Positions 705 to 27,329 of a stretch of DNA of 64,000 nucleotides are shown here, piece by piece. The position numbers were made by a program, and so were the translations under genes. The notes below the pieces were generated by a model that saw only the letters and a program-made list of their open reading frames with translations, was not told the DNA's origin and did not search any database. The stretch lies in the NCBI RefSeq assembly GCF_014126825.1, contig NZ_CP059900.1:806001-870000 (forward strand). The letters run 5' to 3'. Source of the stretch: Tomitella gaofuii (GTDB lineage Bacteria > Actinomycetota > Actinomycetes > Mycobacteriales > Mycobacteriaceae). Numbering within the stretch: the first letter of the stretch is position 1; each line of letters opens with the position of its first letter.

Positions 705-1598
705 TCAGTGCTCGCCGGGCAGCGCGAACATGCCGTCGGAGGTCTGCTCGATGAGCCCGTCTGCGAGCAGCGTGCCCAGTGCGCGGTCGCGCTGGGCGGG
801 TTCGCGGGTCCACGCCGCGTCCAGCCGTGCGCGTGCGACCGGACCGCGTGCCGCGCGCAGTACGGCCATCAGCCGGCCACGCGCCTGCCGGTCGGTGCCC
901 TCGAACTTCTGCGTGGCACGTCTGGGCCCCTCGTATGTGGGGAAACCCAGTGAGCGCCAACGACATTCGGTTAAGGGGCAGGTGTCGCAGCCGGGGGTGC
1001 GTGCGGTGCAGACGAGCGCGCCGAACTCCATGAGCGCGGCCGACAGGCGTGCCGCCGCCGCGGGGGCCGCCGGGAGCATCGCGTCGACGTCCTCCAAGTC
1101 GCGGCGGGTGGACGGCGGACCGGGGTCGCCGCGGCCGTGGACCGTCCGTGCGACGACCCGCCGCACGTTGATGTCGACCACCGGCACGCGCTGGCCGTAG
1201 GCGAAGCAGGCGATGGCGCGGGCGGTGTAGGCGCCGATGCCCGGAAGACCGAGCAACGTGTCGACGTCGCCGGGCACCGTGTCACCGTGCTCGCGCGCGA
1301 GGATGCCGGCGCACTCGTGCAGACGCAGCGCCCGGCGCGGGTATCCCAGGCTCCCCCACTCGCGCAGCACCTCGCCCGCGGTGGCCGCGGCCATGGCCGA
1401 CGGGGCGGGCCAGCGCCGCGCCCACCGTTCCCATACGGGGAGCACGCGCGCGACCGGGGTCTGCTGCAGCATCACCTCGGACAGCAGGATCCGCCATGCG
1501 TCGGTCCCCGTGCGGCGCCAGGGCAGATCGCGCCCGCGGGCGGCGTACCAGCCGGCCAGCTCGCCGGCGGGACCGCGCCCGTCCGTCGCCGTGTCCAT
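705..1598 (-). CDS. mutY: A/G-specific adenine DNA glycosylase MutY
   Basis: Base-excision-repair glycosylase that removes adenine mispaired with 8-oxoguanine. The protein is 297 aa. Visible features are the catalytic Glu41 in LLSEVMLQQT, the helix-hairpin-helix LPGIGAYTA (118-126), Asp142 in VVDIN, and a C-terminal Cys cluster of the [4Fe-4S] type (CTARTPGC, then CDTC, then PLTEC). The last Cys spacing looks one residue shorter than in E. coli MutY. The C-terminal Nudix-like domain is short, as in mycobacteria. The ATG start has a GGAGG site 8 bases upstream. It is divergent from the carbonic anhydrase gene. Confidence 0.95.
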   Translation of the reverse strand: MDTATDGRGPAGELAGWYAARGRDLPWRRTGTDAWRILLSEVMLQQTPVARVLPVWERWARRWPAPSAMAAATAGEVLREWGSLGYPRRALRLHECAGILAREHGDTVPGDVDTLLGLPGIGAYTARAIACFAYGQRVPVVDINVRRVVARTVHGRGDPGPPSTRRDLEDVDAMLPAAPAAAARLSAALMEFGALVCTARTPGCDTCPLTECRWRSLGFPTYEGPRRATQKFEGTDRQARGRLMAVLRAARGPVARARLDAAWTREPAQRDRALGTLLADGLIEQTSDGMFALPGEH

Positions 1599-1726
1599 CG
1601 GCGGCCTCCTCCCGTCGCTGCATCGGTGACTGTACTGGTCAGTAGCAATTTCGATGCGTTCCGTCGAAACCTCGAAAGTCGGGGGGTCGACGAATTGACG
1701 ACTTTTCGCAGGTACATACTGAACCC

Positions 1727-2353
1727 ATGCCGAATTCGAATCCTGTCTCTGCCTGGAACGCCCTCAAGGAGGGTAACCGTCGTTTCGTGGAAGGTAAGCC
1801 CCTGCACCCGTCCCAGGGTGTGGATCGACGCGAGGAGCTCGTGGCCGCGCAGCATCCGACGGCGGTGATCTTCGGGTGCGGCGATTCGCGCGTGGCCGCG
1901 GAGATCACCTTCGATCAGGGCCTCGGAGACGTCTTCGTGGTCCGGACAGCGGGGCATGTCCTGGACGATTCGGTGCTCGGCTCGATCGAGTTCGCCACCG
2001 AGTTGCTCGAGGTCCCCCTCGTCATCGTGCTGGGACACGACAATTGCGGGGGCCTCGGTGCGACGCTCGACGCGCTCGACAACGGCAACATCCCCTCCGG
2101 CTTCATTCGCAGCATCGTCGAGCGGGTCGCCCCGTCGGTGCTCCAGGGGCGGCGTGAGGGGCTCTCCACCTTCGACGAGCTGCTGGGCAAACACGTCATG
2201 GAGACGGCCCACCTGCTCACCGAGCGCTCGCAGCTCATCGCCCAGCGGGTCGAGGAGGGCAAGTGCGCCATCGTCGGCCTCACCTACACCCTGTCGGACG
2301 GACACATGGAGCTTCGGGGCGTCATCGGCGACGTGGGCGAGCAGGTGGCCTGA
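1727..2353 (+). CDS. canB: beta-class carbonic anhydrase
   Basis: Zinc enzyme interconverting CO2 and bicarbonate; homologue of M. tuberculosis CanB (Rv3588c). The protein is 208 aa. Zinc and catalytic residues are visible: Cys51 and Asp53-Arg55 in GCGDSR, and His104 and Cys107 in GHDNCGG. No Shine-Dalgarno sequence precedes the ATG. A -10-like CATACT at 1715-1720 ends six bases before it, so the mRNA may be leaderless. The next gene follows in the same direction after 63 bases. Confidence 0.95.
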   Translation: MPNSNPVSAWNALKEGNRRFVEGKPLHPSQGVDRREELVAAQHPTAVIFGCGDSRVAAEITFDQGLGDVFVVRTAGHVLDDSVLGSIEFATELLEVPLVIVLGHDNCGGLGATLDALDNGNIPSGFIRSIVERVAPSVLQGRREGLSTFDELLGKHVMETAHLLTERSQLIAQRVEEGKCAIVGLTYTLSDGHMELRGVIGDVGEQVA

Positions 2354-2416
2354 CCGACACCGACACGCCGATCGAGGTGCACCCCGTCGCCGCGATCCTC
2401 GCCTACCGTTGACGGC

Positions 2417-3136
2417 GTGTGGGAACCGGAGGGGCCGCTGCCCCAGCAGATCTACCGGCGGCGACGCTTCGCCGCGGTGGGCGTCGCGCTGGTCGTGCTC
2501 ATCGTGGTCGTCATCCTCGTCGCCGTGTCCTGCGGCGGCGGGTCCGACGAGCCGTCCGCGGCCGCCGTGGTGAAGACCTCCGACTCGCCGGAGGCTCCCG
2601 CCACCGCCGAGTCCGGAACGGCCACCCCGACGGGGACCGCGACGTCGTCCGGAACCGCCGTTTCCGGCACCGCGGCGCCGGGCGAGGCGCCGCAGCCGGC
2701 CGGCGCCGCCCAGGCCGAAGGCCAGGAGACGACGGTGCCCGGTGGGCAATGCGCGGATTCGTCCATCGGGCTCACCGTGGCCCCGGATAAGCCCAACTAC
2801 ACGGTCGGCGAATCGGTCACGTTCATCTCGACGGTCACGAACATCGGCTCGGTGCCGTGCGTGCGCGACCTGAGCGGGCCGATGATCGTCAACACCGTGG
2901 AAGCCGTCGACGGCGGCCAGGTCTGGTCCAACGCGGACTGTTTCCCCGGCACCGGCAGCGACATCCGCACGCTCGAACCGGGGGAGCAGGCGCAGTTCAA
3001 GATGGTGTGGGCGGGGACCACGTCGAGCCAGGGGTGCACGCCCGCGGACCGGAAGCCGGTGCCGCCGGGCGTCTACGCGGTGACCACCCACCTGGGGTCG
3101 CTCGCCGGCAAGCCCGTGCCGTTCAACATCCACTGA
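2417..3136 (+). CDS. single-pass membrane protein with extracellular Cys-containing domain
   Basis: Unknown function; positional counterpart of M. tuberculosis Rv3587c. The protein is 239 aa: a short basic N-terminus (YRRRR), one membrane helix at about residues 19-38, a low-complexity Ser/Thr/Ala/Pro linker at about 45-110, then a compact domain with four cysteines (beginning near GGQC) that resembles an immunoglobulin-like or DUF4232-type fold. It is probably anchored with the C-terminus outside. The GTG start follows a TACCGT hexamer (2404-2409) by seven bases with no Shine-Dalgarno sequence, so it may be leaderless. It converges on disA. Confidence 0.75.
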   Translation: MWEPEGPLPQQIYRRRRFAAVGVALVVLIVVVILVAVSCGGGSDEPSAAAVVKTSDSPEAPATAESGTATPTGTATSSGTAVSGTAAPGEAPQPAGAAQAEGQETTVPGGQCADSSIGLTVAPDKPNYTVGESVTFISTVTNIGSVPCVRDLSGPMIVNTVEAVDGGQVWSNADCFPGTGSDIRTLEPGEQAQFKMVWAGTTSSQGCTPADRKPVPPGVYAVTTHLGSLAGKPVPFNIH

Positions 3137-3168
3137 CCCGCGCACCCGGTATTCAGAAGGGGCGCAGA

Positions 3169-4260
3169 TCACCCCAGTCGTTCGGCGATGCCGGCCTCGG
3201 CGAGGCGCGACAGTCCCTCGCGGATGTGGCGTGACCACATCGGCGTGATCCCGTCGACCGATTGCAGGTCTGCGGCGGTGGCCGCGAGGAGCTCGTGCAG
3301 CGTGCCGAACGCATCGACCAGCTTGTCCACCTGGGTGAACTGCAACCGGGGGATCCGGGTGAGCAGCCGGTAGCCGCGCGGCATGATCGGCGAGTCGAGC
3401 GACTCGATCGTCGGCGTGTAGCCGAACGCCCGCGCCAACGTGGTCAGGTCCAGCAGGTCGGCGCCGGTGAGCTGGTCGATCGCCTCGAGGGCGGTGCGGA
3501 TCCGGCTGCTGTCCGGGAGGGTGCCCCCGGGGAGATAGTCGCGCACCAGCAGCTCCCGGCCCGCGTCCCGATTGCCCACCAGCTCCTCGAGCTGCAGCGC
3601 CAGCTGACGCCCGTCCGTGCCGAGCTCGACGACGTGCTTCTCCAGCTCGGTGGACTGCCGCCGGACCATCTCCAGGCGCTGGACCACCGTCATCGCGTCG
3701 CGCAGCGTGACGAAGTCCTCGATCTCGATCACCGACAGCTGGCGGTCCACCTCGTCGAGCCTGCTCCGGTAGCGCTCGAGCGTGGCCACGGCCTGGTTGG
3801 CGCGCGACAAGATGGTGCCCGAATCCTCGATGAGGTGCCGGTGCCCGCCCACGTACACGCTGACGATGCTCATGGACTGGCTGACGGACACCACCGGATG
3901 GCCGGTCTGGATGGCGGTGCGCTCGGCGGCGCGGTGGCGGGTGCCCGATTCCTCCGTGGGCAGGTTGGCGTCCGGCATCAACTGCACGTTGGCCCGCAGG
4001 ATCCGCGTGCAATCGGTGGACAGGACGACGGCGCCGTCCATCTTCGACAACTCGCGCATGCGGGTGGGCGCGAAGGCCACGTCGAGCTCGAATCCGCCGT
4101 CGCAGATGCTCTCCACGAGCGGGTCGTAGCCCAGCAGGATCAGGGCGCCCGTGTGGCCGCGCAGGATCCGTTCGAGACCGTCGCGGAGGGCTGTGCCGGG
4201 TGCCAGGCGGGCGACGGTGTCGCGCAGGCTCGCCGTTTGGCGCCGCTCTTCGATGGGCAC
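3169..4260 (-). CDS. disA: DNA integrity scanning diadenylate cyclase DisA
   Basis: Makes cyclic di-AMP from two ATP and scans DNA for recombination intermediates. The protein is 363 aa, close to the usual 357. The DAC domain shows the DGA motif (75-77) and RHR motif (108-110); the central helical spine and the C-terminal HhH DNA-binding domain follow. I chose GTG at 4260 because homology starts with PIEER and an AAAGG-containing stretch lies upstream; the longer open frame to 4443 is low-complexity. In mycobacteria disA is adjacent and co-oriented with radA. Here an opposite-strand thioesterase gene sits between them, so disA must have its own promoter in 4261-4458. Confidence 0.95.
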
Positions 4261-24242: not shown

Positions 24243-26158
24243 GGGTGCGGACGCGCGTCGTCGTCGGTCGTGTCGTTCCCGGCGCCCGCGCGGGACCCGG
24301 CGTCCGGGGACTGCGCGGGGACCACGGAGCCGAACGGTCCGCCCCCGAAACACAGGTTCAGATCGGGGGTCACGGCGGATATGTCGACGGCCGCGCCGCC
24401 GCCCGTCAGACGGACGTACGCCGTGCCGAGACCGCTGCGGACAGGCACCGTGACGGGGGCGCCGCCGGGCATCGAGACCTCGATCGTCCCGTCGCGGTTG
24501 CTCAGATAGTTGAGCTGCGCCGTCCACACCCAGGGGATCACGGGCTGGGACAGTGCGATGGCGCCGTCGATCCCGGGGGCCACGGCGACGGCGTCCCCGG
24601 TGACGCGCGTGCCGCAGCCGGGCGCCAGGCCTTCGGTGAGCGCGCGGATCCAGGAGACCTCGGCCGGGATCAGGTGTCCGTCGTCGTCGAGCATCGTCAA
24701 CGAGGGGGTGGAATCGGCGAACGCGGGTCGTTCACGCAACGGGCCGAACACGGCGCTGGACTGGTTGTAGGGCGCCGCGACCGGCAGCAGCACCCAGATC
24801 GACACCGGCTGCGACAGCAACGGCACGTCCTGGTGTGCTGCGAGCGCGGCCGTGGCGTTGTGGACATAGTCCACCGTGGGGTTGTCCCGCCACCGTTGTT
24901 CGAAGGTGTATGTGGACCACAGGCTGCCGGCGAGGAACGCGGCGGCGACCACCGCGGTGATCGCCGGCCGTGTCCGCACGGACAGGATCGGCCGGAACGC
25001 CGGGTGCGTGGCGCGGCGAGGTGCCTGATCGATGATGGCGAGTGCGAGGGCGACGATCACCGAGGTGTCCGCGACGTAGCGGAGCGTCTGGGCGATCTCG
25101 ACCGCGGTGCCCTCGCCGCCGCGGGTGAGGACCATCGCGAGTTGCGAGGCCAGCGCATAGGCGGCCACGGCCGGCCACACCCATCCGATGCGCCGCCGGC
25201 GCAGGTGATTGCCCACGACGACGGCGGCTATGAGGAGCCACGCGCCGACCACCAGCACGACGGGCGGTGTGGCCCAGGGCGGGCTCGGCGGCCAGCGGTC
25301 CCAGCTCCACGGGCCGCCGAACAGCGCCGGAAGCAGCCCGAGCGAGGTGCCGTGGTGCAGCAGCGCGGCCGCGTCGTCGAGACGGTCGGTGCGCAGCGGC
25401 GACGCGACGTGGGAGAAGTAGACCGCCGCCCAGCCGGCGAGGATCACCGCGGCGCCGACCCACAGGGACGCGCACGCGCGCACGGTGGAGCGGATCGGTC
25501 GGCGGTCGCCGGCCGTGTGCGCCAACAGCGCCACCACGACGAACGCGACGAACGGGATGACCACAGACTTTTCGTAGAACGCGAGTGCGAGGACAAGAGT
25601 GCCGGCCCCCGTCACCGCGTGCCGGAGACGCCCCGTGCGGTACAGCAGGATCGCTTCGGCCGTCACCAGGGCCAGCCCCGCCTGCAACGGGAGCTGGTTG
25701 AGCCCGTTCGCCCACCAGGCGAACGACGGCAGAGTGAGGGGCGAGAACAGGTAGAGCGCCAGCGGAATGAGCAGCGTGGGCCGGCCGCCGAGGATCACGC
25801 GGAGGACGCGGAGGACGGCCAGGGAGGCCAGGGCCTGCAGTACGACCAGGCTGATCGCGGGGAGCGTCCAGTGCAACGGGGCGATCTTGGTGAGGATCCC
25901 CGCCACGAGGAAGGCGCCGGGCATGAGGTGCCCGTCGTGGTCGTAGAGCAGGAAGTCGGCGGACAGCAACGGATGCTCGCCGGCGCGCGCGACGAGGATC
26001 AGGTCGTCCCAGTAGAAGTAGCCGCGGGCGGCCACGACGCCGCGGACCACCAGCTGCGCGGCGATGAGCGCCAGCGCGGCCACGAGCACACGTCGGCCGG
26101 TGAAGGCGCGGTGCGCTTCCGCGCGGGGCGCGGGTGGTCGTTCGGTCGCGATGGTCAC
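24239..26158 (-). CDS. large polytopic membrane protein, GT-C glycosyltransferase-like
   Basis: 639 aa. About 10-11 membrane helices cover residues 25-420, and a soluble extracytoplasmic C-terminal domain follows. The first outer loop contains YFYWDDLILV, an Asp-Asp placed as in GT-C (dolichol/polyprenyl-phosphate sugar-dependent) glycosyltransferases; YDHDGHLMPGAF follows. I infer a glycosyltransferase acting outside the membrane, but the donor and acceptor are unknown. It is the first gene of a two-gene unit with the acyltransferase. GTG 26158 lies 30 bases from the operator dyads of the divergent HTH gene, so it may share that control. Confidence 0.65.
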   Translation of the reverse strand: MTIATERPPAPRAEAHRAFTGRRVLVAALALIAAQLVVRGVVAARGYFYWDDLILVARAGEHPLLSADFLLYDHDGHLMPGAFLVAGILTKIAPLHWTLPAISLVVLQALASLAVLRVLRVILGGRPTLLIPLALYLFSPLTLPSFAWWANGLNQLPLQAGLALVTAEAILLYRTGRLRHAVTGAGTLVLALAFYEKSVVIPFVAFVVVALLAHTAGDRRPIRSTVRACASLWVGAAVILAGWAAVYFSHVASPLRTDRLDDAAALLHHGTSLGLLPALFGGPWSWDRWPPSPPWATPPVVLVVGAWLLIAAVVVGNHLRRRRIGWVWPAVAAYALASQLAMVLTRGGEGTAVEIAQTLRYVADTSVIVALALAIIDQAPRRATHPAFRPILSVRTRPAITAVVAAAFLAGSLWSTYTFEQRWRDNPTVDYVHNATAALAAHQDVPLLSQPVSIWVLLPVAAPYNQSSAVFGPLRERPAFADSTPSLTMLDDDGHLIPAEVSWIRALTEGLAPGCGTRVTGDAVAVAPGIDGAIALSQPVIPWVWTAQLNYLSNRDGTIEVSMPGGAPVTVPVRSGLGTAYVRLTGGGAAVDISAVTPDLNLCFGGGPFGSVVPAQSPDAGSRAGAGNDTTDDDARPHP

Positions 26159-26187
26159 GGCCCCTCACGATAGAGGAGCGATCGCCG

Positions 26188-26234
26188 TGTCAATGAATAT
26201 TGACAGATTGGCGATGTCAACATATATTGACGGC
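26188..26234 (+). promoter_or_regulatory. consensus leaderless promoter covered by two operator dyads
   Basis: Two near-identical dyads: TGTCAATGAATATTGACA (26188-26205) and TGTCAACATATATTGACG (26215-26232), with centres 27 bases apart. TTGACA at 26200-26205 and TATATT at 26223-26228 are separated by 17 bases, a near-ideal housekeeping promoter lying inside the dyads. Transcription would start at about 26235, the A of the ATG, giving a leaderless message. A repressor on the dyads would block both hexamers. The symmetric layout also allows a weaker minus-strand promoter towards the GT-C-like gene. Confidence 0.75.
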
Positions 26235-26537
26235 ATGGATGCGGGATCGACGATCGGCGGAGCCGCCGGGGCGGCGCGGGATGACGGAGACGCGACGAAG
26301 GCCGGCGAGGACGCGGGTTCGGAGGACACCGCCGCGCTCGTCCGGGGCGCCGCTGCTGCGGACCCGGCCGTCGGGCTCGTGGCCGTGCGCGCGCTGCGGC
26401 GTCTCACCGAGCGGCTCGAGAGCCTGCAGGTGGATGCGGCCCGCAGGCAGGGCTGGTCCTGGCAGGCGATAGCCGACCTTCTCCAGGTCAGCCGTCAAGC
26501 GGTGCACCAGAAGCACGGTCGGCGCACGCGCCGATGA
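26235..26537 (+). CDS. small HTH DNA-binding protein
   Basis: 100 aa. The first 40 residues are Gly/Ala/Asp-rich. The rest is a helical domain: AVRALRRLTERLESLQVDAAR, then a helix-turn-helix QGWSWQAIADLLQVSRQAVHQKHG near the C-terminus, of the sigma-70 region 4/AsnC-like kind. The ATG sits at the predicted transcription start, with no Shine-Dalgarno sequence. Such proteins occur next to Clp N-domain proteins in other actinobacteria. Binding to the dyads upstream, and hence autoregulation, is inference. The ClpC2-like gene follows after 60 bases. Confidence 0.8.
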   Translation: MDAGSTIGGAAGAARDDGDATKAGEDAGSEDTAALVRGAAAADPAVGLVAVRALRRLTERLESLQVDAARRQGWSWQAIADLLQVSRQAVHQKHGRRTRR

Positions 26538-26597
26538 TGCGGCCCGCCCGGGACGTATCCGGCAGCGCACTGTACGAATCAGACTACGGAGGACACG

Positions 26598-27329
26598 ATG
26601 TTCGAAAGATTTGCGCGAGACGCGCGCCGCATAGTCATAGTGGCGCAGGAAGAGGCGATCGACTTGGGAAGCGCCCAGGTGGACCCTCGGCACTATCTGC
26701 TCGCGATGCTGCTCGCGGCGGAACCGCCCGTGCGGAGAGTGCTCGAGGACGCGGGATTCACGGTGGAGCAGGTGCGCGACGATATCCGTACGGCCGACGC
26801 GGCTGTGCACGACGCGGCGCAGGACCGGCCGGGGACGGTGCTGAACGCCGAGGACGTGGATGCGCTCCGCTCGATCGGAATCGATCTGGACGCGGTGCGT
26901 GAAAGCATCGAGGCGCAGTTCGGACCGGAAGCACTCTCCGGCGAGGTCGACACCGATGATCCGGCGCCTGACACGGGCATGCGGGACGAACAGCGTCCGT
27001 CGGAACGCGGACGGGGGAGGCCCGGCGATCGACGGCACCCCGACGGCGATCGCGGCCACGGCCACGGCGGGCCGCACGGTCGTCGGGGCAGGGGCCGGCG
27101 CGGCGGCGGGCGGTTCGGCAGGGTCCGTCTGGACGCGGACGCGAAGAAATCTCTGCAATCGGGGTTGGGTCACGCCGTCCGTGAGCGGGCGGGGGAGATC
27201 ACCGGCGCCTACCTGCTGTTGGGGGTGCTGTCCGGCGCGTCAGGGCCTACCAAGCGGCTCATCGAGACCCGCACGACGACGGAAGCGCTGGCCGACCGCG
27301 TGAAAACCTCGATGGGTTCCGCCGCGTGA
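26598..27329 (+). CDS. ClpC2-like protein: two Clp N-domain repeats, no ATPase
   Basis: 243 aa. Residues 1-115 form one Clp N-terminal repeat pair (MFERFARDARRIVIVAQEEA, then a second half at 85-115). A Gly/Arg/His-rich linker runs from about 120 to 175. A second Clp N-like repeat covers 177-240 (DADAKKSLQSGLGHAVRE). No AAA+ module is present, so it cannot unfold substrates. M. tuberculosis ClpC2 (Rv2667) has this architecture, and ClpC2 proteins can bind ClpC1 N-domain ligands such as cyclomarin. The start has GGAGGACACG upstream. It is probably co-transcribed with the HTH gene. Confidence 0.85.
   Translation: MFERFARDARRIVIVAQEEAIDLGSAQVDPRHYLLAMLLAAEPPVRRVLEDAGFTVEQVRDDIRTADAAVHDAAQDRPGTVLNAEDVDALRSIGIDLDAVRESIEAQFGPEALSGEVDTDDPAPDTGMRDEQRPSERGRGRPGDRRHPDGDRGHGHGGPHGRRGRGRRGGGRFGRVRLDADAKKSLQSGLGHAVRERAGEITGAYLLLGVLSGASGPTKRLIETRTTTEALADRVKTSMGSAA

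Follow-up and report, generated by a model that had tools for sequence, protein, structure and literature searches.

Natural antibiotics act on ClpC1, and one counter-measure already described is ClpC2. A paper by Hoi in Cell (2023) is said to have named a ClpC3; PDB chain 8b9o, considered here as ClpC3, was rejected given that its title is that of the C-terminal domain of M. smegmatis ClpC2. Taylor et al. 2023 describe ClpC2 (Rv2667 type) as an N-domain that dimerises, followed by a C-domain that resembles the ClpC1 NTD and binds cyclomarin A; the cyclomarin contacts in ClpC1 are given there as F2, F80 and E89 (PMC10030653). ClpC2 represses its own expression through the sequence CGTCAAC-n5-GTTGACG, which is often doubled and lies over the -35 and -10 elements of a leaderless promoter; cyclomarin A lifts this autorepression, and ClpC2 then acts as a sponge (PMC10030653). 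Contact with DNA was assigned to the C-terminal domain, as the R185A/R189A mutant showed weakened binding in EMSA, and the terms "helix-turn-helix" and "HTH" are absent from the main text of that paper (PMC10030653). Of three ClpC1 ligands tested, only a cyclomarin analogue is reported to raise ClpC2 (PMC12913811). Another described relative is RelI (Rv2664, of the RelS-RelI system); it is described as partly resembling ClpC2, within an HTH region, and it has been proposed that some RelI-like antitoxins have arisen from ClpC2 (PMC13284704).

The locus described here lies in a 64,000-nucleotide stretch of the genome of Tomitella gaofuii (contig NZ_CP059900.1, positions 806,001 to 870,000), referred to as the window; its features are collected in Table 1. 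In common with fused ClpC2 (PDB 8ADA/8AD9), it encodes an HTH-like domain and a ClpC1-NTD-like Clp_N module with no AAA+ module, and, as judged for the window from its sequence, two GTCAAC-type dyads cover the -35 and -10 of a leaderless promoter, with the start codon just behind the dyad. The differences are that the window has two ORFs with a separate stop and start whereas ClpC2 is one chain, that the operator spacer is 4 at the window and 5 in the CGTCAAC-n5-GTTGACG of ClpC2, and that the Clp_N protein of the window carries an additional half-repeat motif. We consider it probable that this locus is a two-gene, split counterpart of ClpC2 that works in the four steps proposed below. Operator-wrapped leaderless autorepression coupled to a ligand sponge is known from fused ClpC2; the split lineage with a spacer of 4 is new. 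The initial annotation had regarded the locus as an undescribed system, which goes too far, the promoter logic and the sponge idea having already been published for the fused protein (PMC10030653). For the split HTH/Clp_N pair itself, no paper was found among the titles and the opening parts of abstracts of the open-licence literature.

Table 1. Features of the split HTH/Clp_N locus, in window coordinates.
Feature	Position	Strand	Remarks
Operator 1, TGTCAATGAATATTGACA	26188-26205		Core spacer 4; -35 inside right half
-35 element, TTGACA	26200-26205	+	Promoter-pattern scan
Operator 2, TGTCAACATATATTGACG	26215-26232		Core spacer 4; -10 at centre
-10 element, TATATT	26223-26228	+	17 nt from -35
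Small HTH gene, 100 aa	26235-26537	+	Leaderless by prediction; core residues 35-96
Clp_N (ClpC1-NTD-like) gene, 243 aa, without AAA+ module	26598-27329	+	Pfam, model, structure matches
Clp_N repeat 1	26598-26822	+	Residues 1-75; helices 7-22, 30-40, 45-51, 56-75; F2 kept
Extra half-repeat, motif ALRSIGIDLDAVRESI	26847-26921	+	Residues 84-108
G/R/H-rich linker, low confidence, probably disordered	26934-27122	+	Residues 113-175
Clp_N repeat 2, diverged	27126-27323	+	Residues 177-242; F80, E89, R93 = L, Q, G
Possible third operon gene, 4-TM protein, PF04020	27367-27750	+	37 nt after Clp_N gene

The two operators are 18-bp dyads of the form GTCAAY-N4-RTTGAC, arranged as a direct repeat with a spacing of 27 nt around a near-consensus leaderless promoter. 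The combination TTGACA-17-TATATT agrees with the consensus at 11 of 12 positions, and it was the sole promoter-like match on either strand between 26100 and 27500, where shuffled sequences lead one to expect 0.1. The ATG of the HTH gene stands 6 nt past the -10 element, so that the start codon coincides with the transcription start expected from the sequence. A scan of the whole window for the dyad pattern with up to 2 mismatches gave four matches, all of which are these two sites on both strands (in shuffled sequence the mean was 0.69, and four matches came up once in 100 rounds), and the exact core GTCAAYNNNNRTTGAC is present at these two sites only in the 4,353,844-bp genome, in which the reversed-pattern control gave 0 matches. 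The gap of 76 nt between the divergent GT-C-like gene and the HTH gene is, when the first base of the ATG is included, 51% A+T, versus 29% in the window. The dyads, the -35/-10 pair and the position of the ATG, all of which had been pointed out in the initial annotation, are thus borne out by the sequence, the promoter scan and the genome-wide core search; the finding is real, and only the extent given to it has to be corrected, since it was made to start at 26159, whereas the first operator begins at 26188.

The product of the small HTH gene matches Pfam HTH_23 with E=7.5e-5 and 22.9 bits, under the family cut-off of 24.6. The predicted structure of its core shows a long helix followed by the HTH with a mean pLDDT of 93.9, and 23 of the 62 core columns are invariant among 18 relatives. 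A Foldseek search of the PDB with this model gave no match under E=0.001; at the profile level, comparison by hhalign of the core with the N-domain in 30 proteins of the fused ClpC2 type reached a probability of 96.9%, with E=1.8e-10 over 45 columns. A longer version of the HTH protein (157 aa, starting at 26064) was dropped, because relatives have an in-frame start just behind operator 2.

Compared with PDB sequences, the HTH profile has its top match in RelI (9sdc, E=1e-4), a small HTH protein and a distant kin of the one in the window. From this match, and from the ClpC2 origin that has been proposed for some RelI-like antitoxins (PMC13284704), a toxin-antitoxin system might be envisaged in which Clp_N acts as the toxin and the HTH protein as an antitoxin of the RelI type. 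We regard this as extremely unlikely: the partner of RelI is an RNase toxin and that of the window HTH protein is a Clp_N protein, which matches binding domains only and no nuclease or other enzyme family. No RelE-superfamily toxin gene lies beside the window HTH gene, whose downstream neighbours match Clp_N and PF04020, and a PADLOC search gave no match.

Pairing of the two genes was assessed by an HMM scan that asked for a Clp_N match on the same strand and no more than 400 nt from the HTH core. Clp_N follows the HTH gene in each of the 80 named loci; of 40 loci sampled along the ranked list for the class, 35 have this order, the five exceptions being L157, L162, L164, L165 and L166; in the opposite direction, the 18 relatives that were retrieved through Clp_N all have the HTH gene upstream. 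The named hosts include Tomitella, Gordonia, Williamsia, Mycolicibacterium, Nocardia, Rhodococcus, Actinomadura, Streptomyces, Streptosporangium, Jiangella and Isoptericola. The nearest named match, from Tomitella cavernea, is 97% identical over the HTH core, and a same-genus genome has a nearly identical locus to that of T. cavernea. In the phylum sample, the HTH profile was found with E<=1e-10 in 38 of 197 genomes, and 25 genomes with an HTH match lie outside the class Actinomycetes; among 12 loci from 12 genomes of other classes, the pair was present in 12 and spacer-4 operators in 10.

In this broad set of hosts the HTH and Clp_N sequences occupy separate frames or ORFs in 133 of 138 loci examined, a count in which one place appears twice (L016/L048). 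This result bears on the idea that a sequencing error or a recent frameshift has cut a fused clpC2 into these two ORFs, to which it could be added that in the window both frames are in the same phase and 60 nt apart, and that clpC1 of the same assembly looks frameshifted. Nevertheless, the probability of such an origin is practically negligible, and a sequencing error as the source of the split pair is refuted by the separate ORFs, by an intact fused clpC2 elsewhere in the genome and by the trees. The fused gene of this genome has a 255-aa frame and is preceded by two spacer-5 dyads, which are the only exact spacer-5 sites of the genome. In the HTH tree (43 split and 15 of the 30 fused proteins, 62 columns), split and fused sequences are fully apart with a support of 100/100; in the Clp_N tree (36 split, 15 fused and 4 ClpC1), support is 100/100 for the fused sequences and as low as 77/14 for the split ones. 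It is likely from these trees that the split sequences share one origin.

Another characteristic feature of the split pairs is the spacer of their operators. An exact operator was found in 60 of the 80 named loci, and all 103 matches have a spacer of 4, with none at 0-3 or 5-10; in 100 rounds of dinucleotide shuffling, spacer 4 was obtained in 0 loci. Among the other 20 named loci, 15 have a site with one mismatch, always with spacer 4 although 2-7 were allowed, and L049, L054, L077, L084 and L118 have no operator even with one mismatch. The dyads are therefore conserved upstream of homologous pairs, and the earlier view, that the HTH and Clp_N genes form an autoregulated operon whose leaderless promoter is wrapped by operators, is supported by the sequences of these loci. 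Exact operators were also found in 23 of the 31 loci of the class sample that were examined in this regard, all of those listed having spacer 4. In all 43 named loci with two operators, an in-frame start codon is located 2-4 nt behind operator 2, and in 39 of them the -10 position reads TAnnnT. By contrast with spacer 4 at the split pairs, operators were found at 27 of 29 fused clpC2 loci, and all 51 exact matches there have a spacer of 5.

The two spacers were also compared in 22 genomes, comprising 20 that have both systems and two congeners (G003 and G004) in which the fused gene was not located. Of the 48 exact spacer-4 sites in these genomes, 39 are at split pairs; of the 65 exact spacer-5 sites, 36 are at fused genes that were located and 3 belong to the two congeners, and the other 26 lie in different places, many as single sites in genus g55. 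When positions were compared by hand, the located fused genes were free of spacer-4 sites and the split pairs of spacer-5 sites. The reversed-pattern control gave 5 forward sites with spacer 4 and 3 with spacer 5. A single exact site is no proof of a target, because exact sites also occur away from split pairs and fused genes. With a stricter directional pattern of two operators and a start codon 2-4 nt behind them (1-4 nt for spacer 5), 103 of 393 class genomes were positive for spacer 4 and 88 of 393 for spacer 5, the reversed control giving 0 among the entries listed. The spacer rule offers a simple predictive handle to find and distinguish split and fused circuits, and also possible extra targets.

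The Clp_N protein matches PF02861 with E=1.7e-13, a single stretch being recognised; its divergent second repeat is visible in the predicted model. This model (mean pLDDT 78) shows repeat 1 with four helices, two further helices at 84-92 and 97-108, the linker, and repeat 2 with four helices; its closest structural matches are ClpC1 N-domains, and the Clp_N of the split pair is homologous to the N-domains of ClpC1 and ClpC2. It shares the Clp_N double repeat with the ClpC1 N-terminal domain; on the other hand, it lacks the AAA+ modules of ClpC1 and ClpB, no AAA+ family matching the Clp_N or HTH ORFs at E<=1 in Pfam, and differs from ClpC1 in its extra half-repeat and strongly diverged repeat 2. 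The initial annotation had correctly recognised two repeats and no AAA+ module; the additional two-helix segment and the long G/R/H-rich linker between the repeats were missing from that description. Within the linker, 33 of the 53 residues from 120 to 172 are G, R or H. The extra helix pair bears one of the best-conserved stretches of the family, ALRSIGIDLDAVR, and in a mycobacterial relative this segment aligns with the last helices of ClpC1 repeat 1; it is therefore read as a duplicated half-repeat. Searched as a regular expression, the half-repeat motif was present in 123 of 132 split Clp_N proteins and between the repeats in 0 of 30 fused ClpC2 proteins.

The residues of the ligand pocket reveal that the split family is not uniform. 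At the positions of ClpC1 F2, F80, E89 and R93, the window Clp_N has F, L, Q and G, the alignment being less sure in the diverged repeat 2, so that the cyclomarin contacts F2, F80 and E89 are not kept as a set and only F2 remains. In fused ClpC2 these contacts are mostly kept (F2 in 30/30, F80 in 18/30 with Y in the other 12, and E89 in 28/30). Among split proteins, F2, F80, E89 and R93 are all present in 73 of 100 of the short-linker type, which have at most 215 aa, and in none of the 32 of the long-linker type, for which the alignment of repeat 2 is less sure; the window protein belongs to the latter. Because the cyclomarin pocket is largely lost, the ligand of the window Clp_N is probably not cyclomarin-like. 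A role as a cyclomarin sponge may hold for much of the split family and is weak for the window member, for which it is likelier that the ligand is another one, or that the protein serves only in regulation or as a holdase. Sensing of phospho-arginine, which had been suggested initially, is also doubtful for this member, which has R and A at the positions of ClpC1 E31 and E106, residues that we take to be the phospho-arginine binding sites.

The mechanism that we propose for the split pair consists of four steps. The first has strong support from the sequences: a dimer of the HTH protein would bind both GTCAAY-N4-RTTGAC operators over its own -35 and -10 elements and keep the operon off. In the second step, by analogy with fused ClpC2, free Clp_N would act as a ligand-binding arm that helps the HTH protein to hold the operators, probably by contacting it via the extra half-repeat. 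In the third, a ligand of the ClpC1 N-domain type, either a ClpC-directed peptide or protein or an unfolded protein, would fill Clp_N and repression would drop; both proteins would then build up, and Clp_N would soak up the ligand. In the fourth, the one-base difference in spacer between split (4) and fused (5) operators, a pattern seen in the sequences, would serve to insulate both circuits within one genome. The missing pocket residues of the window Clp_N, which are most of them, count against this explanation, as do the named loci with no exact operator, the class-sample loci in which Clp_N does not follow the HTH gene, the exact sites away from the pairs and the low tree support for the split Clp_N group.

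Which of the two chains reads the operator can be approached through the arginines that were mutated in ClpC2. R185 and R189 correspond to ClpC1 positions 93 and 97, where the window Clp_N has G and R, and yet the operator is kept; it is for this reason that the HTH protein would be the operator reader. Judged from the split pair, the operator is likely to be read by the HTH chain; the ClpC2 paper favours the Clp_N domain, and the effect of R185A/R189A in EMSA counts against a purely HTH-based reading (PMC10030653). The HTH domain and the Clp_N C-domain may both contribute to DNA contact.

The loss of one of these two DNA-contact arginines (G at 93, with R at 97) is also in line with the main rival explanation, in which the HTH protein alone is the autorepressor and Clp_N is a passenger sponge that does not gate it, release being brought about by turnover of the HTH protein (for instance by toxin-hyperactivated ClpC1P) or by titration. 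That HTH and Clp_N are separate chains, and that related HTH proteins exist in settings that lack Clp_N, such as the RelI antitoxin or those encoded ahead of a serine-hydrolase-like gene, would agree with it as well. However, the tight pairing of the genes (80/80, 35/40 and 12/12) and the conserved half-repeat suggest an interaction between the two proteins, and we consider the HTH-only explanation unlikely, albeit with a substantial share of the probability. The HTH and serine-hydrolase-like pairs just mentioned, which come from other actinobacteria (L226, L228 and L232), have in common with the window the double spacer-4 leaderless promoter and a related HTH protein; in place of Clp_N, their effector resembles by eye a beta-lactamase-type hydrolase.

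The neighbourhood of the split pair is less conserved than the pair itself. A homologue of the possible third gene, PF04020, is present in 14 of 97 homologous loci. On the other side, the GT-C-like gene starts at 26158 and diverges from the HTH gene; given the 76-nt gap and the symmetry of the dyads, the operators could serve mainly this gene, or form a shared bidirectional switch, as had been suggested in the initial annotation. Such an arrangement is very unlikely. A GT-C-like neighbour was found in only 4 of the 97 loci, namely in three same-genus genomes and in T. cavernea, which is near-identical to one of these three, yet the operators occur phylum-wide; moreover, the promoter match is on the plus strand only. 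As a general feature, the shared switch was rejected on the count of neighbours.

In the genome of the window there are no further exact operator sites, with spacer 4 or 5, beyond those of the split pair and of fused clpC2. In other genomes, spacer-4 operators precede several types of gene, each of which recurs in two or more genomes: DUF998 membrane proteins (pairs in L223, L224 and L235 and a single site in L205; 46-83% identical), alpha/beta hydrolases (L198 and L227; 62% identical) and ABC transporters (L199 and L233; 72% identical). In genus g39, three genomes have spacer-5 operators ahead of related FAD monooxygenases (L202, L203 and L242; 74-78% identical), which are a possible extra target of fused ClpC2; a methyltransferase was seen behind a spacer-5 pair once (L204). 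The start codon lies just behind the operator in the DUF998 and hydrolase genes and not in the ABC and monooxygenase genes. From their sequences, these genes look like detoxification or efflux functions, which would fit a xenobiotic response. The examined operator places that have no clear target are about as many as those with recurrent targets. Of 20 spacer-4 places picked by eye as lying away from a known HTH gene, 8 turned out to lie before an HTH gene and 5 before a recurrent target, and no clear target follows the other 7 (L222, L229, L231 and L236-L239); of 7 spacer-5 places, 5 precede fused ClpC2-like genes, 1 a monooxygenase and 1 nothing clear (L245). L200, L201 and L206-L209 are single sites, with an HTH-like frame near L200 and no clear target at the others.

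A wider interpretation can be put forward tentatively. The split pair might represent an ancient, phylum-wide xenobiotic switch of Actinomycetota, in which an HTH repressor and a free ClpC-like receptor domain would form a ligand-gated two-protein repressor that a spacer code insulates from fused ClpC2, and whose regulon in some lineages would reach detoxification and membrane genes (DUF998, alpha/beta hydrolase and ABC transporter with spacer 4; FAD monooxygenase with spacer 5). The split pair suggests that the logic of this counter-measure goes further back, and is more widespread, than one would gather from the work on mycobacteria.

Other Clp-related frames were observed in the same genome. 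At L010 (G000:C1:2058000-2061000), a 187-aa frame on the minus strand gives a further stand-alone, weak Clp_N match (E=4.3e-5), and at L012 (G000:C1:1336000-1341500), also on the minus strand, a 900-aa frame that is Clp ATPase-like by eye begins with a Gly-rich part and matches Clp_N once (E=2.5e-7). The clpC1 frame of the assembly, just upstream of the window (L011, G000:C1:800500-806500, positions 1579-4163), is broken into a 428-aa frame with the rest in two other frames; in four same-genus genomes clpC1 has open frames of 855-861 codons, and the breaks are probably assembly indels in an essential gene.
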